From Pseudoxanthomonas beigongshangi (GTDB lineage: Bacteria; Pseudomonadota; Gammaproteobacteria; Xanthomonadales; Xanthomonadaceae): a stretch of DNA of 64,000 nt. Positions 7,337 to 52,111 of this stretch are shown here, piece by piece. The stretch lies in the NCBI RefSeq assembly GCF_016820515.1, contig NZ_JADHDV010000011.1, positions 1 to 64,000 on the forward strand, written 5' to 3'. Position 1 is the stretch's first letter, and every line of letters begins with the position of its first letter. The position numbers and the translations under genes are program-made. A model generated the notes under the pieces. That model made no database searches. It saw nothing but the letters and a program-made list of their open reading frames with translations, and was not told where the DNA came from.

Positions 7337-7487
7337 GTGGAGCGGAGCCTGCTCCGCTGCGGTGGCTCGGTTTTTTGTCTTTTCACCTTGTGCGCCACCA
7401 GTTTGCGCGCTGGCGCCCGATAGCCATTCCGGATGAAAGCGAAAGGCAAAAGCAAACGCCACGGCAGCGGAGCAAGCTCCGCTCTAC
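7337..7487. repeat. REP doublet (two inverted GTAG-type palindromes)
   Basis: Two head-to-head palindromic units (7337-7360 and 7464-7487) with the core AGCGGAGCNNGCTCCGCT flank about 103 bp. The same doublet recurs at 47375-47522 and 52004-52111. The right unit begins GTAG on the minus strand, like the SMAG repeats described in Stenotrophomonas maltophilia. The right unit contains the stop codon of the response-regulator gene (TAG at 7486-7484). Confidence 0.85.
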
Positions 7488-9370: not shown

Positions 9371-10636
9371 ATGCACGACGCCGTCAGCCGCCCCACGCCC
9401 CCCGCCAACGCCGCCGCCTGGCCCCGCCGCATCACCCATGCCGTCGATATCGGCGGAGTGAAGGTCGGTGGCGGGCAACCGGTGGTGGTGCAGTCGATGA
9501 CCAACACCGACACCGCCGATATCGCCGGCAGCGTCCGCCAGGTGGCCGAGCTCTGGCGCGCCGGTTCGGAAATGGTCCGGCTGACCGTCAACAATCCCGA
9601 ATCCGCCGCCGCCATCCCGCGCATCCGCGAGAAGCTGGAGATGATGGGGATTACGGTGCCGCTGATCGGCGATTTCCACTACAACGGCCACCAGTTGCTG
9701 GCCGGCGAACCTGCCTGCGCCGAGGCGCTGGCCAAGTACCGCATCAATCCGGGCAACGTCGGCTTCGGCAAGAAGAAGGACACCCAGTTCGCCCAGTTGA
9801 TCGAATTCGCCATCCGCTACGGCAAGCCGGTGCGGATCGGCGCCAACTGGGGATCCCTGGACCAGGCGCTGGCCGCGCAGCTGATGGACGAGAACCACCA
9901 GCGCGAGCAGCCTTGGGACGCCGGCCGGGTGCTGCGCGAAGCGCTGATCCGCTCGGCGGTGGATTCGGCCGAGCGCGCGGTGGATCTGGGCCTGCCGCGC
10001 GATCGCATCGTGCTGTCGGCCAAGGTCAGCGGCGTGCAGGAACTGATTGCGGTGTATCGCGACATGTCGCAGCGCTCGGAGTTCGCCCTGCACCTGGGCC
10101 TGACCGAAGCCGGCATCGGCAGCAAGGGCATCGTCGCCTCGGCGGCGGCGCTGTCGGTGCTGCTGCAGGAGGGCATCGGCGACACCATCCGCATTTCGCT
10201 CACCCCGGAGCCGGGCCAGTCGCGCACGCAGGAAGTGATCGTGGCGCAGGAACTGCTGCAGACCACCGGCCAGCGCGCCTTCACCCCGATGGTCACCGCC
10301 TGCCCGGGCTGTGGCCGCACCACGTCGGAGTTCTTCCAGGAACTGGCCAAGGTGGTGCAGAACCATGTGCGCGGCAAGATGCCGGAATGGAAGATCAGCC
10401 ACCCCGGCGCGGAGAACATGACCCTGGCGGTGATGGGCTGCGTGGTGAACGGTCCCGGCGAATCGCGCCACGCCAACATCGGCATTTCCCTCCCGGGCAC
10501 GGGCGAGGCCCCGGCCGCGCCGGTGTTCATCGACGGCGAGAAGGCGGTGACCCTGCGCGGCGAGAACATCGCCCAGGAATTTATCGCCCTGATCGACGGC
10601 TACGTCGAACGCAAGTACGCGCGTGGCGCCGTCTGA
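9371..10636 (+). CDS. ispG: 4-hydroxy-3-methylbut-2-en-1-yl diphosphate synthase (flavodoxin-dependent)
   Basis: 421-aa IspG/GcpE, the penultimate enzyme of the MEP isoprenoid pathway, converting MEcPP to HMBPP with a [4Fe-4S] cluster. Seen directly: [17 protein letters not shown] near the N-terminus, [13 protein letters not shown], and the C-terminal cluster ligands in [13 protein letters not shown] and [11 protein letters not shown]. The length is that of the proteobacterial form without the large insert. The ATG at 9371 (MHDAVSRP) is preferred; an in-frame ATG lies three codons upstream. The 3' end overlaps the PAP2 gene by 14 bp. The enzyme is known to be oxygen-sensitive, which is notable beside a redox-sensing kinase. 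Confidence 0.97.
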
Positions 10637-11324
10637 GGTCCTGGCCCAGGGGCTGAACGCCCTGCTCGGATTGTTGCGCGAGCGCGGCCTGCGGATGCTG
10701 CTGCTGTTCGCCGGTGTGCTGGCGCCGCTGTGGCTGTTCGTGGAACTGGCCGACGAAGTCCACGAACTGGAGAACTTCTTCTTCGACGATCCGCTGCTGT
10801 GGCGGATGCACGCGCTGGCCTCGCCGGCGCTGGATCGCTTCTTCGTCGGGATTTCGGCGGCCGGCTATCAGTACGGGGTGATACCGGTCGACATCGCTAT
10901 CGTGCTGGGCTTGCTGGCCTGGCGGCGCTGGCGCGAGGCGTTGTTCGCGGCGTCCTCGTTCATCGGTTCGGCGCTGCTGAACCTGGCGACCAAGCAGTTC
11001 TTCCAGCGCGACCGGCCGTCGCTGTGGGATTCGATCGCGCCCGAGCACACTTTCAGTTTCCCGAGTGGGCATGCGATGGGGTCGATGACCCTGGCGATGG
11101 TGGTGTTCCTGCTGGCCTGGCGCACCCGCTGGCGCTGGCCGGCGGCGCTGGCCGCGCTCGCCTTCGTCCTGCTGGTCGGCCTGTCCCGGGTCTACCTGGG
11201 CGTGCATTACCCCTCGGACATCCTGGGTGGCTGGGCCGCGGGCATGGCCTGGGTGGCCGGCCTGTATATCGTGCTGTACCGCAACGGCGGGCCGTGGAAG
11301 CGCGTCGCTCAGGCGAACTCGTAG
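10623..11324 (+). CDS. PAP2-family membrane phosphatase
   Basis: 233-aa integral membrane protein with the three phosphatase motifs in order: KQFFQRDRP (124-132), PSGH (147-150) and [12 protein letters not shown] (188-199). About five or six hydrophobic segments are seen. Members hydrolyse lipid phosphates such as undecaprenyl diphosphate or phosphatidate at the membrane surface; lying right after ispG, a role in isoprenoid or lipid-carrier recycling is plausible but not shown. The GTG at 10623 lies inside the end of ispG, so translation is probably coupled. The 3' end overlaps the convergent VOC gene by 16 bp. Confidence 0.88.
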
Positions 11325-42669: not shown

Positions 42670-42745
<76 letters not shown>

Positions 42746-42870: not shown

Positions 42871-43962
42871 TCATCCGGCCGTGGTGGCGGCTTCGTCGCG
42901 CTCAAGCAGCGGTTCCAGCTCGGCCCGGCGCCAGCCGGACAGGGCGCCGGGCCATTCTCCGGATTCCAGCAGGACTTCCAGATAGCGACGCGAGGCCAGC
43001 ACGCCGTCGGGCAGGCCCAGTTCCGCGCTGCGGCGGGCCACCGCGTCCTGCAGCTTGCGCAGCGCGGCCTTGTCGCGATCGGTGGCGGCGCGGGCCAGCG
43101 GTGCTTCGGCCTCGTCCGCCAGCGGAGTGGACAAGCCCTCCCAGAGTGCGTCGGCCAGCTTGCGTGGCGCCTTGGGCTGGGCGTCCAGCCAGCGACCCAG
43201 CGCGGCGCGATCGGCCGGCGGCGTGCGTGCCAGCGCCACCGCCATTTCATTGTCCAGAATCCAACTGCGTGGCTTGTCGCTGCGACGGGCGGCGGCATCG
43301 CGCCAGCGCAGCAACCGCAGCAGGCGATGCTGGGCGGGCGCATCCAGGAACTGCGCGCTGCGCATGGCCAGGTGCGGCCAGCGATCGCCTTCTTCCTGGG
43401 TCGCGTTTTCCAGCAGGCGCCGGCTGTCCTCGACCAGCCATTCGCTGCGTCCGCTTTCATGCAGCCGGGCGGCGAGGTCGTCGTGCAGCGCGAACAGGTA
43501 ATGCACGTCGTCGGCGGCGTACTTGAGTTGCGATTCGCTGAGCGGACGGCGTAGCCAGTCCGATCGCGTTTCACCCTTGGCCAGGGCGACGCCGGTGATC
43601 TGTTCGACCAGCTTCTGGTAGCCGATGCCGGCGGCGACGCCGGCCAGGGCGGCGGCGATCTGGGTGTCGAACAGCGGTTGCGGCACGGCGCCGCAGGTGT
43701 AGCCCAGGGCGACCAGGTCCTCGCTGGCGCTGTGCATGACCTTGAGAATGCGGGTATCGCCGAGGATCGTCGCCAGCGCCTGCGGCATGCCGGGTTGCAG
43801 CGGATCGATCAGCAGGATTTCCTCGCCCACGGCCATCTGGACCAGCGCCAGCTGGGGCCAGAAGGTGCGCTCGCGGACGAACTCCGTGTCCAGGCCGATG
43901 CGGGCCGGGGGCGTGGCGAAGAACGCGGCGAGGGCGTCCGGGGTTTGAATCCAATGGGGCAC
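42871..43962 (-). CDS. rnd: Ribonuclease D
   Basis: 363 aa. The DEDD exonuclease signature is seen as Asp25/Glu27 (GLDTEFVRE), MHSASEDLVAL, and SQLKYAADDVHYL (the DEDDy Tyr and last Asp). A C-terminal HRDC-like region (WILDNEMAVALARTPP) follows. It trims tRNA 3' ends in the cytoplasm; fittingly it lies just upstream of a tRNA gene. The GTG at 43962 is chosen: GGAG precedes it by about six bases and the protein begins VPHWIQTPD. Confidence 0.94.
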   Translation of the reverse strand: MPHWIQTPDALAAFFATPPARIGLDTEFVRERTFWPQLALVQMAVGEEILLIDPLQPGMPQALATILGDTRILKVMHSASEDLVALGYTCGAVPQPLFDTQIAAALAGVAAGIGYQKLVEQITGVALAKGETRSDWLRRPLSESQLKYAADDVHYLFALHDDLAARLHESGRSEWLVEDSRRLLENATQEEGDRWPHLAMRSAQFLDAPAQHRLLRLLRWRDAAARRSDKPRSWILDNEMAVALARTPPADRAALGRWLDAQPKAPRKLADALWEGLSTPLADEAEAPLARAATDRDKAALRKLQDAVARRSAELGLPDGVLASRRYLEVLLESGEWPGALSGWRRAELEPLLERDEAATTAG

Positions 43963-44031: not shown

Positions 44032-45891
44032 GTGAGTGTGGAGGGCGGTTTGCGCGCGTTTGGCCTGCTGGTGCTGACCGGTCTGGTGCTGTGCGGTTGC
44101 TCGCGCGAGCCCGCGGCGTCGCGCAATGCACGCGGCGATGCGGCCGATGTGCGCATGCCCCGGATTACCGTCACCGGTGACGACAGCGTCAACGCCGCCC
44201 TCAACTGGCAGCCTCCGGTGGTCCTGCTGGCGCAGGAGGGCGTCGCCGACGCGCGCAGGCGCGCGGCGCGGGCGCTGGAAGAAGGACGCCTGTATGCCGG
44301 TCCCGACGATGCGATTCCGCTCTACCTGGCCATCCGCCGGCTCGACCCGGAAGACGCCGTGGCCCGCAAGGGTCTGGACCAGGCCCTGGATCGCCTGCTC
44401 GAACGCGGCGAACGGGTGCTGAAAACCGCCGAAGACCGCGACGAGGACGCGCGCGAGGCGGCCCAGATCGCCGCCGTTGCGCGTGCCATCGATCCGGACG
44501 ACGAGGCCGTGCTGGCCTACCTGTCGCGGGTGGATGAAGTCGAACAGTTGACCCGTCTCAACCTGGCCAGCGAGCGCGCGCTCAACGGCGGGCGGTTGGG
44601 CGAGCAGGGCGGCGGCGCGCTGGCGGGCTTTCGCGAAGTGCTGAAGTGGAAACCGGGCCAGGCACGTGCGCTGCAGGGCGTGGCGGCGGTGGAGAGCGCG
44701 CTGATCCGGCGCGCCGAGGATGCGGCGCTGGCCGGCGATTTCGACGGCGCGCGCAACTGGCTGGCGCATGCGGGCAAGGTTCGCGGCGGCGACGAGTCCG
44801 TGACGGTCGCTGACGCGCGCCAGCGGGTCGAAGCGATCCGCACGGTGCGCATCGCCGGGCTGCGCGAATCGGGCGTGCAGGATCTGCAGTCGCCGCTGGG
44901 CCTGAAGGCCGCGCGCGAAAAGCTCGCGGAAGTGCTGCGCATCGCACCGCCTGGCGATCCGGTCGCGGCCGATTTCCGCCAGCGGATCGAACTGGCTACC
45001 CACTACGGGCTCTTCCGTCCCGGCCAGGCCTTCACCGACGCGCTCGGCAACGGCGGCCGCGGGCCGGAAATGGTGATCGTGCCGCACGGTGCGTTCCGCA
45101 TGGGCGCGGACGACAACGAACTGGGCTCCGCCGATGCGGAAAAACCGGCCCACTATGTCCGCTTCGACCGCGGTTTCGCGATGGCGCGCAATGCGGTGAC
45201 CGTCGGCGAATTCCGTCGCTTCGTGCAGGCGACCAGCTATCGCCCGCGCGCGACCCGGCGCGGGCATTCCATCGTCTACGACGAGCGGAGCGGCAACTTC
45301 GTCCGCCGCAGCGGCGTGGACTGGCAATCCGACCATAGCGGGGCGCCGGCGCGCGAGGACATGCCGGTGCTGCATGTCAGCGTCTACGACGCCGAGGCCT
45401 ACGCCGACTGGTTGACCCGCCAGACCGGGCATGGCTATCGCCTGCCCAGCGAGGCGGAGTTCGAATACGCCCTGCGCGCGGGCGTGCAGGGCCGCTACCC
45501 CTGGGGCAACGGGGTGCCACCGGCCAAGGTGGAGAACCTGACCGGCGGCAACGACGCCTCGCCCAGCGGCCGCCATTGGAACAACGCCTTCGTCGGTTAC
45601 GGCGACGGTTACTGGGGACCGGCGCCGGTGGGCAGCTTCCGGCCCAATGCCTGGGGGCTGCACGACATGGGCGGCAACACCAGCGAGTGGGTGGCCGATT
45701 GCTGGCACGCCAGCTACCGGCGGGCGCCGGCCGACGGCGCCGCCTGGTTCAATCCCGGTTGCCGTTCGCGGGTGGTGCGGGGCGGCTCCTGGGCCAGCGC
45801 GCCGGTGCAGGCACGGGCGGCATGGCGTTCCTCCTCGGATTCGGATATGACTAATGCGCGGGTGGGCTTCCGCGTGGTGCGTGGCATCTAG
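44032..45891 (+). CDS. SUMF1/formylglycine-generating-enzyme-fold lipoprotein, catalytic cysteines absent
   Basis: 619 aa from the GTG at 44032 (GTG 44038 also possible). The N-terminal LTGLVLCGCS is a lipobox (Cys23), so an envelope lipoprotein. Residues about 40-335 are helical and charged, without a family I recognise. The C-terminal 280 residues are a SUMF1 domain: MVIVPHGAFRMGADDNE, FRRFVQATSY, YRLPSEAEFEYALRAG, PWGNG, NAWGLHDMGGNTSEWVAD and RVVRGGSW (584-587). In true formylglycine-generating enzymes the segment after RGGSW holds the two active-site cysteines; here it reads ASAPVQARAAW, so it is probably a non-catalytic binding or structural version. It leads a cluster with M48 protease and a START-like protein. 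Confidence 0.88.
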   Translation: MSVEGGLRAFGLLVLTGLVLCGCSREPAASRNARGDAADVRMPRITVTGDDSVNAALNWQPPVVLLAQEGVADARRRAARALEEGRLYAGPDDAIPLYLAIRRLDPEDAVARKGLDQALDRLLERGERVLKTAEDRDEDAREAAQIAAVARAIDPDDEAVLAYLSRVDEVEQLTRLNLASERALNGGRLGEQGGGALAGFREVLKWKPGQARALQGVAAVESALIRRAEDAALAGDFDGARNWLAHAGKVRGGDESVTVADARQRVEAIRTVRIAGLRESGVQDLQSPLGLKAAREKLAEVLRIAPPGDPVAADFRQRIELATHYGLFRPGQAFTDALGNGGRGPEMVIVPHGAFRMGADDNELGSADAEKPAHYVRFDRGFAMARNAVTVGEFRRFVQATSYRPRATRRGHSIVYDERSGNFVRRSGVDWQSDHSGAPAREDMPVLHVSVYDAEAYADWLTRQTGHGYRLPSEAEFEYALRAGVQGRYPWGNGVPPAKVENLTGGNDASPSGRHWNNAFVGYGDGYWGPAPVGSFRPNAWGLHDMGGNTSEWVADCWHASYRRAPADGAAWFNPGCRSRVVRGGSWASAPVQARAAWRSSSDSDMTNARVGFRVVRGI

Positions 45892-45911
45892 CCGGCAACT
45901 GGGAGAAGGCG

Positions 45912-46826
45912 ATGAGGAACGATCCGTTCGGGCAGGGACAGTACGAACAGGGTGGCGCGCCCCGGCGGCGCGGCCTGTTCGGCAACGTGCGCTGGCTGAT
46001 CCTGCTGGGGTTCGCGGGCTATGCCGCGTTCTACTGGTTCTCCAACCGCGTCGTGGACCCCTACACCGGCGAGAAGGTGCTGATCGACAGCTCGATCAGC
46101 GTGGAGGAGGAAAAGGCGCTGGGCCTGCAGGCCTACCAGGAAATCCTCTCGCAGGAACGCCCGGTCGATCCCGATTCGCAGATTGCCCAGCAGGTGCGCG
46201 CCATCGCGCAGCGCCTGATCGAAAAGATCCCCGAAGTCGAAGCGGCCATCGCCCAGGAGCGGGGCACCCAGGCCAGTGGCAACTGGCGCACCTTCGACTG
46301 GGATGTCAACGTCATCCAGTCAGACCAGGCCAATGCGTTCTGCCTGCCCGGCGGCAAGATGGCCGTCTACACCGGGCTGATCCCGGTCGCCAAGAATGCC
46401 GATGCGGTGGCGGTGGTGATGGGCCACGAGATCGCGCATGCCCTGTTGCGTCATGGCGCCCAGCGCATGTCCCAGCAGAAACTGACCCAGATCGGCCAGA
46501 TGGCCGGCGCGATGAGCGGCATGGATCCGCAACAGCAGCAGATGGTGATGGCGGCGATGGGCTACGGCTACCTGTTGCCTTACGCGCGCACGCATGAAAC
46601 CCAGGCCGACGAAGTCGGGCTGATGCTCGCCGCCGCGGCCTGCTTCAATCCGCAGGAAGCGGTGCCGCTGTGGGAGCGCATGAGCGAGGCCAGCGGTGGG
46701 CAGGCGCCGCCCGAGTTCTCCTCCACCCATCCCAACCCCGGCACCCGCATCCAGAACCTGACCGCGCTGATGCCCAAGGCGATGGAATACCGCAACCGGT
46801 ACTGCAAAGAGGCGGCGGCGCAATGA
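45912..46826 (+). CDS. M48-family membrane metalloprotease
   Basis: 304 aa with one N-terminal transmembrane helix (about 26-43) and a Zn-protease domain: HEIAH (172-176) and a third ligand, Glu229, in ETQAD. AFCLPGGKMAVYTGL is the conserved strand before the active-site helix. The layout resembles the LoiP/BepA-like M48 group involved in outer-membrane quality control rather than HtpX. The protein sits 20 bp after the SUMF1 lipoprotein and its stop overlaps the next gene (ATGA), so all three are probably one operon. Confidence 0.9.
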   Translation: MRNDPFGQGQYEQGGAPRRRGLFGNVRWLILLGFAGYAAFYWFSNRVVDPYTGEKVLIDSSISVEEEKALGLQAYQEILSQERPVDPDSQIAQQVRAIAQRLIEKIPEVEAAIAQERGTQASGNWRTFDWDVNVIQSDQANAFCLPGGKMAVYTGLIPVAKNADAVAVVMGHEIAHALLRHGAQRMSQQKLTQIGQMAGAMSGMDPQQQQMVMAAMGYGYLLPYARTHETQADEVGLMLAAAACFNPQEAVPLWERMSEASGGQAPPEFSSTHPNPGTRIQNLTALMPKAMEYRNRYCKEAAAQ

Positions 46827-47347
46827 TCGCGCGCCGGTGGGCGGCGATGCTGCTGGCCGGCGGACTGGCGGTGTCGGCGCAGGCGGCGGTCAAGGACCAG
46901 GCCGCCAACGGCTTCACCGTCGAGAACAGCCAATGGGTGCCGGTGACGCCGGAAGCGGCATGGAAGGGATTGGCCGAGATCGGGCAGTGGTGGCCGAAGG
47001 ATCACACCTGGTGGGGTGACGCCTCACGCCTGAGCCTGGAGCCGCGCGCCGGCGGCTGCTTCTGCGAAATCGACGGCCTGCGCCAGGCCCGGCACATGAC
47101 GGTGGTGTTCGCCGAGCCAGGCAAGCTCCTGCGCCTGACCGGCGGTCTTGGACCGCTGCAGGGAATGGGATTGTCGGGGGCGATGGAATGGCGCCTGGCC
47201 GAGGAGAACGGCGGCACCCGTATCACGCTGTGGTATCGCGCCGGCGGTTACACGCCGGACGACCTGCGCACCCTGGCCCCGGTGGTGGACCGGGTGCAGG
47301 CGCAGCAACTGGCTGGATTGGCGGAGTACCTGCGCAAGGGCGGGTAA
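46823..47347 (+). CDS. Exported SRPBCC/START-like protein
   Basis: 174 aa. The signal peptide is MLLAGGLAVSAQA near residues 9-21. The rest has a START/Bet v1-like pattern: FTVENSQWVPVTPEAAWKGLAEIGQWW, then strands ending in GMGLSGAMEWRLAEENGGTRITLWYRAGG, and a long C-terminal helix. This fold makes a hydrophobic pocket; a lipid-like ligand is possible. Periplasmic START proteins are less common than cytosolic ones. Its ATG overlaps the protease stop. Confidence 0.78.
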   Translation: MIARRWAAMLLAGGLAVSAQAAVKDQAANGFTVENSQWVPVTPEAAWKGLAEIGQWWPKDHTWWGDASRLSLEPRAGGCFCEIDGLRQARHMTVVFAEPGKLLRLTGGLGPLQGMGLSGAMEWRLAEENGGTRITLWYRAGGYTPDDLRTLAPVVDRVQAQQLAGLAEYLRKGG

Positions 47348-47374: not shown

Positions 47375-47522
47375 GTAGAGCGGAGCTTGCTCCGCTGCTT
47401 TTGTGGGATGTTGCAACGTTGTCTGCCTTCGTTTCCAGCCTTCGACAGCTTGTGCTTCAGCGTCCGATACCGATGACGCATGAGAAACCAAAACCAAGGC
47501 AGCGGAGCGAGCTCCGCTCTAC
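47375..47522. repeat. REP doublet, second copy
   Basis: Inverted palindromes at 47375-47398 (GTAGAGCGGAGCTTGCTCCG then CTGC) and 47499-47522, about 100 bp apart, as at 7337. The right unit ends one base before the stop codon of the small membrane-protein gene. Confidence 0.85.
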
Positions 47523-47747: not shown

Positions 47748-48488
47748 TCAGAAGCTCATGAAGAGGCCGCCGTTGACCGGCAGGTTGGCGCCGGTGATGT
47801 AGCCGGACGCATCGTCGGCCAGGAACGCCACGGCGCGGGCGATGTCCTCCGGCGCACCGATCCGGCCGACCGGGACCGAGGCGATGGTGCGCGACCGCAC
47901 GTCCTCCGGCATCGCGCGGGTCATCGGCGTTTCGATGTAGCCGGGCGACACGCTGTTGACGGTGATGCCCTTGGCCGCGACTTCGCGCGCCAGCGACATG
48001 GTGAAGCCGTGCAGACCGGCCTTGGCGGCGGCGTAGTTGGTCTGGCCGAAGTTGCCGGTCTGGCCACTGACCGAACTGATGTTGATGACCCGGCCGAAGC
48101 CGCGCGCCTGCATGCCGTCGATGGCGTGGCGCGAGAGGTTGAACACGCTGCCCAGGTTGACGTCGATGACCGCTTCCCATTGCGACTCGTCCATCTTGCG
48201 CAGGGTGGAGTCGCGGGTGATGCCGGCGTTGTTGACCAGGATGTCCAGCCCGCCGTGCGCGTCCTGCACATCGCGCACGAACGCGCCGCAGGCGGAAAAG
48301 TCGCTGACGTCCAACGGCATGAAATGGACGTCCAGCCCGGTGGTGGCGTCGGCGAAGGATGCCCGGCGCGCATCGTCGGCGGGCAGGTCGGCGGCGATGA
48401 CGGTATGGCCGGCGCCGGCCAATTGCTTGCAGATGGCGGTGCCCAGACCGCCGATGCCGCCGGTGACGACCGCGACGCGTTTGCTCAT
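47748..48488 (-). CDS. Acetoacetyl-CoA reductase (PhbB-like SDR), copy 1
   Basis: 246-aa short-chain dehydrogenase. The cofactor motif TGGIGGLGTA, NNAG (ILVNNAGITRDST), catalytic SSVSGQ-serine and YAAAK are intact; the C-terminal NGGLFMSF is like PhaB. It probably reduces acetoacetyl-CoA to (R)-3-hydroxybutyryl-CoA with NADPH for polyhydroxybutyrate. It is the downstream partner of phaR (76 bp, with a terminator between) and a paralogue of the gene at 49237. Confidence 0.85.
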   Translation of the reverse strand: MSKRVAVVTGGIGGLGTAICKQLAGAGHTVIAADLPADDARRASFADATTGLDVHFMPLDVSDFSACGAFVRDVQDAHGGLDILVNNAGITRDSTLRKMDESQWEAVIDVNLGSVFNLSRHAIDGMQARGFGRVINISSVSGQTGNFGQTNYAAAKAGLHGFTMSLAREVAAKGITVNSVSPGYIETPMTRAMPEDVRSRTIASVPVGRIGAPEDIARAVAFLADDASGYITGANLPVNGGLFMSF

Positions 48489-48517
48489 GGAGGGGATCCT
48501 CGGAAATCGGATGGCAT

Positions 48518-48546
48518 GAAAAAGCCCGCGCCACGGGGCGCGGGCT
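48518..48546 (-). terminator. Terminator between phaR and the first reductase gene
   Basis: On the minus strand AGCCCGCGCC, short loop, GGCGCGGGCT followed by TTTTC. It lies 19 bp after the phaR stop, so the reductase gene likely has its own promoter. Confidence 0.85.
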
Positions 48547-48564
48547 CGTTCACGGAAACGGGAT

Positions 48565-49071
48565 TCAGCGGGCGCGGGTCTTCGGCGTCTCGCGCGGGGC
48601 TTCCTTCGGCTTGGCGGTGGCCGGACGGCCCAGGCCGCCGCCGCTGAGGTTGCGCTGGAATTCCTGCCACAGCTCCAGGTTGCGCTCGGTCAGCTGGTTC
48701 ATCATGGTCCAGGGCGTCTGTCCCAGCAGGTTGCCCATCTGGCTGCGGAACTGCTGCTGCTGCTCCATGAAGATCTGCATGCTGCGCTCCAGGTAGTTGC
48801 CCATGAAGCCCTGCAGCGAATCGCCGTAGAAGCGGATGATCTGGCTCAGCAGCTGGGTGGACAGCACCGGTTCGCCATCCTGTTCCTGCTCGCTGATGAT
48901 CTGCAGCAGGACGGTGCGGGTCAGGTCCTCGCCGCTCTTGGCGTCGCGGACCTCGAAGTCCTCGCCATCGACGATCAGCTGGCGGACGTCCTCGATGGTG
49001 ATGTAACTGGAAATCTCGGTGTCGTAGAGACGGCGGTTCGGGTACTTCTTGATGATGCGGATCGCAGCCAT
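48565..49071 (-). CDS. phaR: Polyhydroxyalkanoate synthesis repressor PhaR
   Basis: 168 aa with the N-terminal PHB DNA-binding domain (IRIIKKYPNRRLYDTEISSY, IEDVRQLIVDGEDFEV) and the PHB accumulation domain (TRTVLLQIISEQE; SQIIRFYGDSLQGFMGNYLE). PhaR binds both phasin promoters and PHB granules and senses polymer. The C-terminal tail is Pro/Ala/Lys-rich. It lies between two acetoacetyl-CoA reductase genes, but no PHB synthase or phasin gene is in the window. Confidence 0.93.
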   Translation of the reverse strand: MAAIRIIKKYPNRRLYDTEISSYITIEDVRQLIVDGEDFEVRDAKSGEDLTRTVLLQIISEQEQDGEPVLSTQLLSQIIRFYGDSLQGFMGNYLERSMQIFMEQQQQFRSQMGNLLGQTPWTMMNQLTERNLELWQEFQRNLSGGGLGRPATAKPKEAPRETPKTRAR

Positions 49072-49178
49072 GAAGCAATCACTCTAAAACGCAGTGCCGG
49101 GCAGCATGACGCAGCGCAGCAGCCCTTGCAACAGGCCGCAGGTCAGGGGTGCCCTGTTCAGGAACAACGCCGGGCAAA

Positions 49179-49211
49179 AAAAATGCTGCGGGCCGGACCC
49201 GCAGCATTTTT
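49179..49211 (-). terminator. Bidirectional terminator between phaR and the second reductase gene
   Basis: AAAAATGCTGCGGG with CCCGCAGCATTTTT, a stem with A- and T-runs on its two sides; it ends 25 bp beyond the stop of the reductase gene at 49237. Confidence 0.9.
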
Positions 49212-49236
49212 GGATCGTGGCGGGCGCCGGAACCGG

Positions 49237-49977
49237 TCACCAACCCATGTGGTGGCCGCCGTTGATGTCCAGGTTGGAACCGGTGATCCAGCCGGCCTCG
49301 TCGGCGACCAGGAACGCCACCGCATAGGCGATCTCGTCCGGGTTGCCCAGGCGGCCGGTCGGGATGTCCGCGGCGATCTTGGCGCGCACTTCCTCCGGCA
49401 CCGCCATCACCATGTCGGTGGCGACGTAGCCCGGCGACACCGTGTTGACGGTGATGCCGAGCTTGGCGTTCTCGCGGGCCAGCGAAATGGTGAAGCCGTG
49501 CATGCCGGCCTTGGCGGCGGCGTAGTTGGCCTGTCCGTACTGGCCCTTGAGGCCGTTGATGGAACTGATCTGGATGATCCGGCCCCACTTGCGATCGCGC
49601 ATGCCCTCGATCACCGGGCGGGTCATGTTGAACACCGAATTGAGGTTGGTGTTGATGACCTCGTTCCACTGCAGTGAACTCATGCGGTGGAAGGTGGTGT
49701 CGCGGGTGATGCCGGCGTTGTTGATCAGGATTTCCACCGGGCCGAGTTCGGCCTCGACCTTGCGCACGAGGGATTCGGCTTCCTCGGCGGAAGTGACGTC
49801 GCCGGGGAACAGCGCGACATCGTAGCCGTCGGCCTTCATCTGCTGCTGCCAGGCCTTGGCCTTTTCCTCGTTGCGGTAATTGGTGGCTACGCGATGGCCC
49901 ATGCCGGCCAACTTCTTGCAGATGGCGGTTCCGATGCCGCCGGTGCCGCCGGTGACCAGCGCGACGCGAGAACTCAT
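49237..49977 (-). CDS. phbB: Acetoacetyl-CoA reductase (PhbB), copy 2
   Basis: 246-aa SDR with TGGTGGIGTA, INNAGITRDTTF, the catalytic serine ISSINGLKGQYGQ and YAAAK, and SPGYVATDM. It is closer to Ralstonia-type PhaB than copy 1 (for example SSVNGQKGQFGQ-like loop and NGGHHMGW end). The cofactor loop after GGTGG is followed by ATNYRNEEKAK, an NADPH-type pattern. It has its own terminator, so it is a separate transcription unit from phaR. Confidence 0.9.
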   Translation of the reverse strand: MSSRVALVTGGTGGIGTAICKKLAGMGHRVATNYRNEEKAKAWQQQMKADGYDVALFPGDVTSAEEAESLVRKVEAELGPVEILINNAGITRDTTFHRMSSLQWNEVINTNLNSVFNMTRPVIEGMRDRKWGRIIQISSINGLKGQYGQANYAAAKAGMHGFTISLARENAKLGITVNTVSPGYVATDMVMAVPEEVRAKIAADIPTGRLGNPDEIAYAVAFLVADEAGWITGSNLDINGGHHMGW

Positions 49978-52003: not shown

Positions 52004-52111
52004 GTAGAGCGGAGCTTGCTCCGCTGCCTTCGCTCTGGCCTTTGCTTTTGCGTCTCGCTTTCACGGGAAGCGGAAACCAAGGCAAGGGCAGCGGAGCAAG
52101 CTCCGCTCCAC
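52004..52111. repeat. REP doublet, third copy
   Basis: Inverted palindromes at 52004-52027 (GTAGAGCGGAGCTTGCTCCG then CTGC) and 52088-52111, with a 60-bp core containing TTTGCTTTTGCG. It starts directly after the htpX terminator and lies between convergent genes. Confidence 0.87.

Follow-up and report, generated by a model that had tools for sequence, protein, structure and literature searches.

Which task falls to a protein that has the fold of a formylglycine-generating enzyme (FGE) and lacks the cysteines of its copper site, and do the genes behind it encode its partners? The question is raised by a 64,000-nucleotide stretch of Pseudoxanthomonas beigongshangi (contig NZ_JADHDV010000011.1, positions 1 to 64,000; the window). 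Here a gene with a GTG start for an apparently anchored 619-residue protein with a TPR-like arm and a SUMF1 domain (44032..45891, + strand; PF03781), hereafter the SUMF1 protein, precedes genes for a 304-residue M48 metalloprotease (45912..46826, + strand; PF01435) and a 174-residue secreted SRPBCC/START-like protein (46823..47347, + strand; PF10604). The three form the tightly packed row that a first-pass annotation had described, the third gene starting at ATG 46823 in an ATGA overlap with the M48 stop codon; GTG 46670 is merely the mechanical start of that open reading frame and was discarded. The spacing suggests a single transcription unit, and a promoter scan found none. Our tentative reading is that the SUMF1 protein puts the FGE fold to a new use, docking or adaptor work at a membrane, and that it would partner the M48 protease in part of its order.

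The C-terminal head falls within the FGE-sulfatase superfamily: residues 344–617 match PF03781 with an E value of 6e-70 and 236 bits, against a cut-off of 23.3. Unlike in FGEs, the loop after the RGGSW motif, RGGSWASAPVQARAAWR, contains no copper-site cysteines. The C-terminus of the head (RGGSWASAPVQARAAWR..., 45778..45888, + strand) was examined in an alignment of 20 sequences (A1), in orthologue entries and against PvdO and FGEs; two invariant cysteines, C557 and C577, lie just upstream. The orthologue set comprises 136 entries (114 distinct sequences), of which two stop before the loop: L007, whose frame is broken, and L064, which ends with its contig. None of the 134 entries that reach it has a cysteine directly after the RGG-W motif (a script scored 105, and the printed tails of the other 29 were read by eye), and a stricter cysteine motif, which would overlook these 29 tails with a non-serine residue at the serine position, is found in none of the 136; DCWH is missing solely from L007 and L064. 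Judged by its sequence, the SUMF1 protein is not an FGE, because the copper-site cysteine pair that marks FGEs is absent from all 134 of these entries. The first-pass annotation was correct about these cysteines; its further term 'non-catalytic' goes a step beyond what the sequence shows, 'not an FGE', because PvdO is not an FGE either and yet is required for an oxidation (PMC6206403, in excerpt). Among wider relatives the FGE cysteine pattern occurs in none of 32 hits at 29 loci (28 from a class search plus L002; L003 yielded no hit), a count that reflects a strict pattern and a biased sample, the class loci having been found with the profile of the SUMF1 family itself. A search of open-licence papers brought up, among the titles and abstract openings listed, no function for the SUMF1 protein and no paper on this gene set.

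The head (residues 330–619) is preceded by a helical arm (residues ∼51–325) and by an N-terminus (...LTGLVLCGC-SREP) that reads by eye as a lipobox, L20-C-G-C23. A lipobox pattern lies close to the N-terminus in 113 of the 136 locus entries (pattern matching and by-eye judgement). Most of the 23 misses belong to families of the order outside the window's own, several of which show a hydrophobic N-terminal segment instead, and the rest are a few truncated entries or members of the window's family with a cysteine that narrowly escaped the pattern (all by eye). From these N-termini the protein appears to be membrane-anchored, by a lipid in most Lysobacteraceae and by a hydrophobic segment in several other families. 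A model built from A1, with a predicted local distance difference test (pLDDT) score of 79 and a predicted TM-score (pTM) of 0.53, shows residues 51–325 as helical; weak spots in the head (pLDDT below 50) are residues 559–561, 573–584 and 594–598. The arm matches TPR_20 with an E value of 0.014, under the cut-off, and the weak hits of a Foldseek search with the full model included TPR chains alongside other helical ones; together these are no more than suggestive of a TPR-like arm.

The second gene encodes an M48 peptidase with an intact zinc motif. It matches Peptidase_M48 (PF01435) with an E value of 3e-34 and 119 bits, against a cut-off of 20.3, and all 16 aligned relatives keep H172, E173, H176 and E229, the residues of the HExxH motif (H172-E-x-x-H176) and the downstream glutamate, unchanged. 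Its N-terminus is arginine-rich and continues into a single hydrophobic stretch, a probable membrane anchor (by eye). The envelope location proposed in the first-pass annotation gains support from these two apparent anchors and from the signal-like N-terminus of the third protein (by eye). The M48 chain ends after the protease domain: the PF01435 match runs to residue 285 of 304, and the chain matched no TPR family. In tests against named families it scored 85 bits for BepA (NF052400, cut-off 570), whose same-chain C-terminal TPR part it lacks, and 49 bits for LoiP (NF052399, cut-off 365). The genome holds four M48 matches: the window protein, HtpX, a LoiP-like 284-residue lipoprotein (best NCBIfam scores BepA 106 bits and LoiP 70 bits, both below cut-off) and a 599-residue open frame. 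The last matches BepA best (337 bits, below cut-off), and its second half weakly matches a TPR-repeat profile (E 2e-5). Alongside HtpX and the LoiP-like protein, this open frame counts as a BepA-like protein of its own, TPR-like in its second half.

We favour a docking or adaptor role, tentatively, and there are two precedents: in PorK the FGE fold is described as a docking hub without catalytic cysteines (PMC12421860, in excerpt), and BepA joins M48 and TPR parts, with contacts between the TPR part and the protease (PMC7950410, in excerpt). The SUMF1 protein would then be an order-specific periplasmic protein held at the membrane, with a TPR-like arm and a PvdO-type FGE-fold head that lacks the residues for making formylglycine; the groove of the head, together with the arm, would hold partners or clients, much as PorK uses its own repurposed fold. 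Its gene shares a row, in part of the order, with that of an apparently anchored M48 protease that has its zinc motif intact and, as against BepA, no TPR domain of its own. There the pair would take up the BepA layout on two chains, with envelope clients handed to the protease by the SUMF1 protein, and the SRPBCC protein would be an accessory in Pseudoxanthomonas. The likenesses have limits. The PorK/GldK lipoproteins of the type IX secretion ring likewise have a repurposed FGE fold without catalytic cysteines, but they belong to another phylum and carry insertions where the SUMF1 protein has its TPR-like arm; the structural match of the SUMF1 head to PorK has a Z score of 18.7, and the PorK/GldK model TIGR03525 gives 102 bits against a cut-off of 350. 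BepA, an outer-membrane assembly protease, is also a periplasmic M48 zinc protease and the window pair has a TPR-like part next door, but here two chains carry the protease and the arm, the protease seems to be anchored in the membrane, and a BepA-like protein is encoded separately in the genome. A split BepA, in which one row encodes, as separate proteins, the M48 catalytic part and the client-docking TPR/FGE-fold part of an order-specific envelope protease, is a reading that we consider unlikely; if it is true, the FGE fold would have been turned into an envelope docking hub a second time, PorK being the other case.

The linkage of the genes was surveyed at the best 80 of at least 542 confirmed SUMF1 loci (the named loci, among which L117 is counted) and in a census of 121 genomes of the order. 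The census applied E-value cut-offs of 1e-120 for SUMF1, 1e-85 for M48 and 1e-25 for rnd, which are strict and may miss diverged copies, and found SUMF1 in 113, M48 in 34 and rnd in 116 of the 121 genomes. The most constant neighbour, missed in the first-pass annotation, is the divergent RNase D gene rnd (42871..43953, − strand, exact start not fixed; hidden Markov model span 42904–43953; TIGR01388, 374 bits, over the cut-off). It lies beside SUMF1 at 79 of 80 named loci (L107 ends too early), adjoins it divergently in 18 of 18 outside-family stretches of the order around the best SUMF1 hit (L034–L051) and, by a scripted count, lies divergently within 5 kb upstream in 103 of 113 order genomes. 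The ten exceptions are the relocated copy in G231, six genomes that have the genes on separate contigs, and three in which rnd gave no hit. A sample of the class, in which no listed genome is marked as the same order, so that the order's other families fall outside it, was matched by the SUMF1 profile at E 1e-50 in 22 of 143 genomes. Near-full-length matches occurred only in G000 and G095, which belong to the window's family and have SUMF1 beside rnd, and the remaining hits begin at profile position 315 or later, in the head only.

An M48 gene follows SUMF1 at 59 of 80 named loci, and in 25 of the 34 M48-bearing order genomes it is adjacent and co-directional; in G262 it is also adjacent, SUMF1 being cut at a contig end, and in G279, G282, G287 and G319 the two lie on different contigs. 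The spacing between the two genes has a median of 22 bp (range −38 to 1882; 98 locus entries, duplicates included). The adjacency occurs in families f1, f2, f3 and f12, and stretches of the last three, tested with nine window genes, contained none of the START-like gene, the polyhydroxyalkanoate-type block, gluQ or htpX. In G231 the pair lies together ∼375 kb from rnd, and the SUMF1–M48 link is not merely a shared spot beside rnd for this reason. Clustering of the open reading frames of 31 stretches yielded mostly spurious GC-rich frames and no clear constant neighbour besides rnd, SUMF1 and, partly, M48. The near-universal and deepest unit is rnd/SUMF1, M48 is a recurrent partner in a pair that is real but optional, and the SRPBCC gene is a local partner.

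Several observations weigh against the adaptor–protease partnership. The strongest is the distribution of conservation: the head has 55 of the 58 columns that are invariant in A1 and the arm two, a pattern that an active site or a ligand pocket would explain no less well than an adaptor would, and the arm itself is only putatively TPR. SUMF1 is kept without M48 across most of the order, as the census counts of 113 and 34 genomes show. The 21 named loci without M48 are all labelled Xanthomonas (at L101 the contig ends ∼220 bases past SUMF1, and absence is not judgeable there), and four other Xanthomonas-labelled loci do have the gene (L088, L103, L109 and L119). In a whole-genome search of 13 Xanthomonas genomes without M48 at SUMF1, none had an M48 orthologue, although SUMF1 was kept; these genomes returned distant M48 paralogues only (best E values 1.5e-35 to 6.4e-34), against a close copy (E of 1e-116 or lower) in 10 of 10 comparison genomes. 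SUMF1 and M48 lie apart within contigs in G286, G046, G054 and G055, where SUMF1 stays by rnd. In the window's own genus, G010 has no M48 orthologue, and in G006, an assembly with 8% contamination, SUMF1 is missing and M48 and rnd are direct neighbours (L063, 961–1147). Finally, pairwise distances over 71 loci correlate with r of 0.95 for SUMF1 and rnd, 0.78 for SUMF1 and M48 and 0.77 for M48 and rnd; the first value is as expected of two vertically inherited genes, the M48 distances track those of SUMF1 barely better than rnd predicts, and the partial correlation of SUMF1 with M48 given rnd is 0.25. Co-divergence is thus weak support at best for a co-adapted SUMF1–M48 complex.

The head conservation is one ground for a different reading, in which the head is a PvdO-like enzyme without the FGE copper site, a periplasmic oxidoreductase or small-molecule modifier that the arm would position at the membrane or substrate, with the M48 and SRPBCC proteins as unrelated passengers. 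PvdO of Pseudomonas (PDB entry 5hha) is periplasmic, and also combines the FGE fold with absent FGE cysteines. No solved structure is closer to the SUMF1 protein in sequence (E 1e-42; FGEs come next, at best 5e-26), and PvdO also ranks first in the Foldseek search with the SUMF1 model. The active loop of the SUMF1 head has the PvdO length, three residues shorter than in human FGE (sequence alignment), and C557, C577 and the DCWH...AP-DG-W motif are common to the head and PvdO and not found in human FGE. Overall, PvdO and the FGEs are nearly equal in their likeness to the head. PvdO is identical at 104 of 256 residues and at 38 of 55 head invariants, C557 and C577 included; human FGE is identical at 99 of 250 residues and at 35 of 54 head invariants, both cysteines being absent. 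Structural matching with VIA-align gave PvdO a Z score of 24.4 (root-mean-square deviation 3.0 over 251 residues) and FGEs scores of ∼23 to 24; 24.4 against 23.8 is a tie by the program's own rule. PvdO moreover differs as a 286-residue chain without a helical arm that serves pyoverdine synthesis, in its last oxidation, its identity to the SUMF1 protein is no higher than that of human FGE, and its equivalog model (NF051459) scores the SUMF1 protein at 194 bits against a cut-off of 500. Since purified PvdO is inactive and without detectable cofactor (PMC6206403, in excerpt), the chemistry of such a head is unreadable from its residues, and the window genes scanned showed no recognisable biosynthetic cluster. 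We regard a PvdO-like enzyme as a doubtful account, if a close rival of the docking or adaptor reading.

An equally close and equally doubtful rival is the proposal that nothing joins the products beyond a shared transcript and inert gene order: SUMF1 would have been inherited by the side of rnd, with M48 and later SRPBCC settling behind it. The constancy of rnd speaks for it, being that of an RNase without an obvious envelope link, and so do the Xanthomonas genomes that keep SUMF1 without an M48 orthologue, the four genomes with M48 elsewhere, the lineage-limited START-like gene and the weak co-divergence. Gene-order inertia accords less well with a SUMF1–M48 pair that survives changes of the other tested downstream neighbours and, in G231, stays together away from rnd.

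The docking or adaptor reading is the one we retain, tentatively. Under it, the M48 partnership would add to the few cases of a former enzyme fold turned docking part and give a handle on M48 client choice; were the head an enzyme instead, it would help to define the role of PvdO-type heads. In either case the SUMF1 protein appears to belong to the envelope, and it is conserved in an order that includes many plant-associated and opportunistic species.

The third protein is the least constant member of the row. It matches Polyketide_cyc2 (PF10604) with an E value of 1.4e-6 and 29.1 bits, against a cut-off of 27.4, and its model (pLDDT 88.6) resembles chains of the SRPBCC/Bet v1 type (best E 4e-7, TM ∼0.5–0.7), so that both score and fold place it in the SRPBCC/Polyketide_cyc2 group; the Foldseek matches include 3q63 and the abscisic acid receptor PYR1, both of the SRPBCC/Bet v1 fold. 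It shares this fold with the Polyketide_cyc2/AHSA1-like proteins and differs from them in being apparently secreted and in carrying an invariant GCFCE motif, and a search of NCBIfam with 14 members at E 0.01 matched no family. C79, C81, E82, H61 and H91 do not vary among the 14 relatives compared. A GCFCE motif with conserved histidines is unusual for a plain lipid-binding cavity and could be a metal site or a disulfide. In the phylum sample a relative at E 1e-15 occurs in nine of 150 genomes; two are in the window's family, the window itself and G226, where the gene lies ∼550 kb from the SUMF1–M48 pair of that genome. Relatives elsewhere (L061, L065, L066 and G226) have no adjoining M48 gene of the window type. 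Within the genus of the window the gene lies beside M48 in 24 of 37 genomes, and it is in the row at 15 of 80 named loci, all Pseudoxanthomonas; it is a local add-on.

The first-pass annotation had named, as what would refute it, that the three genes are not kept together in other genomes, and by this test the trio fails. The SUMF1–M48 part of the linkage recurs, but the START-like gene is local and its homologues elsewhere are unlinked, and we reject the trio as a conserved system. A three-part envelope quality-control or lipid-trafficking module is accordingly very improbable despite the tight co-directional order in Pseudoxanthomonas, the four-base M48/START overlap in 31 of 39 locus entries and the apparently extracytoplasmic location of all three proteins. 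A defence function was also rejected, as a PADLOC search with the three proteins at E 0.001 gave no match.

Some further features of these loci may be recorded. The divergent linkage of rnd and SUMF1 in 103 of 113 order genomes has no evident functional reason. The gap between the two genes is ∼1.8 kb in 14 of the 103 genomes, all of family f8; in the one such stretch read (L051) it appears to be filled by a gene for a 5'-nucleotidase-like lipoprotein (9489–11126, named by eye). The closest named record among the matches listed is L067 of Pseudoxanthomonas sp. z9, with 99% identity across the SUMF1 protein. The rnd/SUMF1/M48 block of a Lysobacteraceae also occurs on L117, a contig under the name of Bacillus subtilis SK7B5, which is probably contamination or mislabelled. 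In the window, a tRNA-Ala (cgc) gene (42670–42745, minus strand) lies just past the 3' end of rnd. On the other side, the gene row is followed by an inverted pair of hairpins resembling GTAG-type repetitive extragenic palindromic (REP) elements (47375..47522), with a terminator-like stem at 47379–47396. Beyond these, on the minus strand, lies a polyhydroxyalkanoate-type block of an acetoacetyl-CoA reductase, PhaR and a second reductase, phaR being flanked by the two reductase-type genes (47748–49974), then GluQRS, and next htpX on the plus strand. The GTAGAGCGGAGC..GCTCCGCT hairpins, which resemble the GTAG-type REP elements of Stenotrophomonas, were found six times at up to three mismatches and not once in shuffled sequences, and they occur in the window as three inverted pairs, at 7337–7487, 47375–47522 and 52004–52111.

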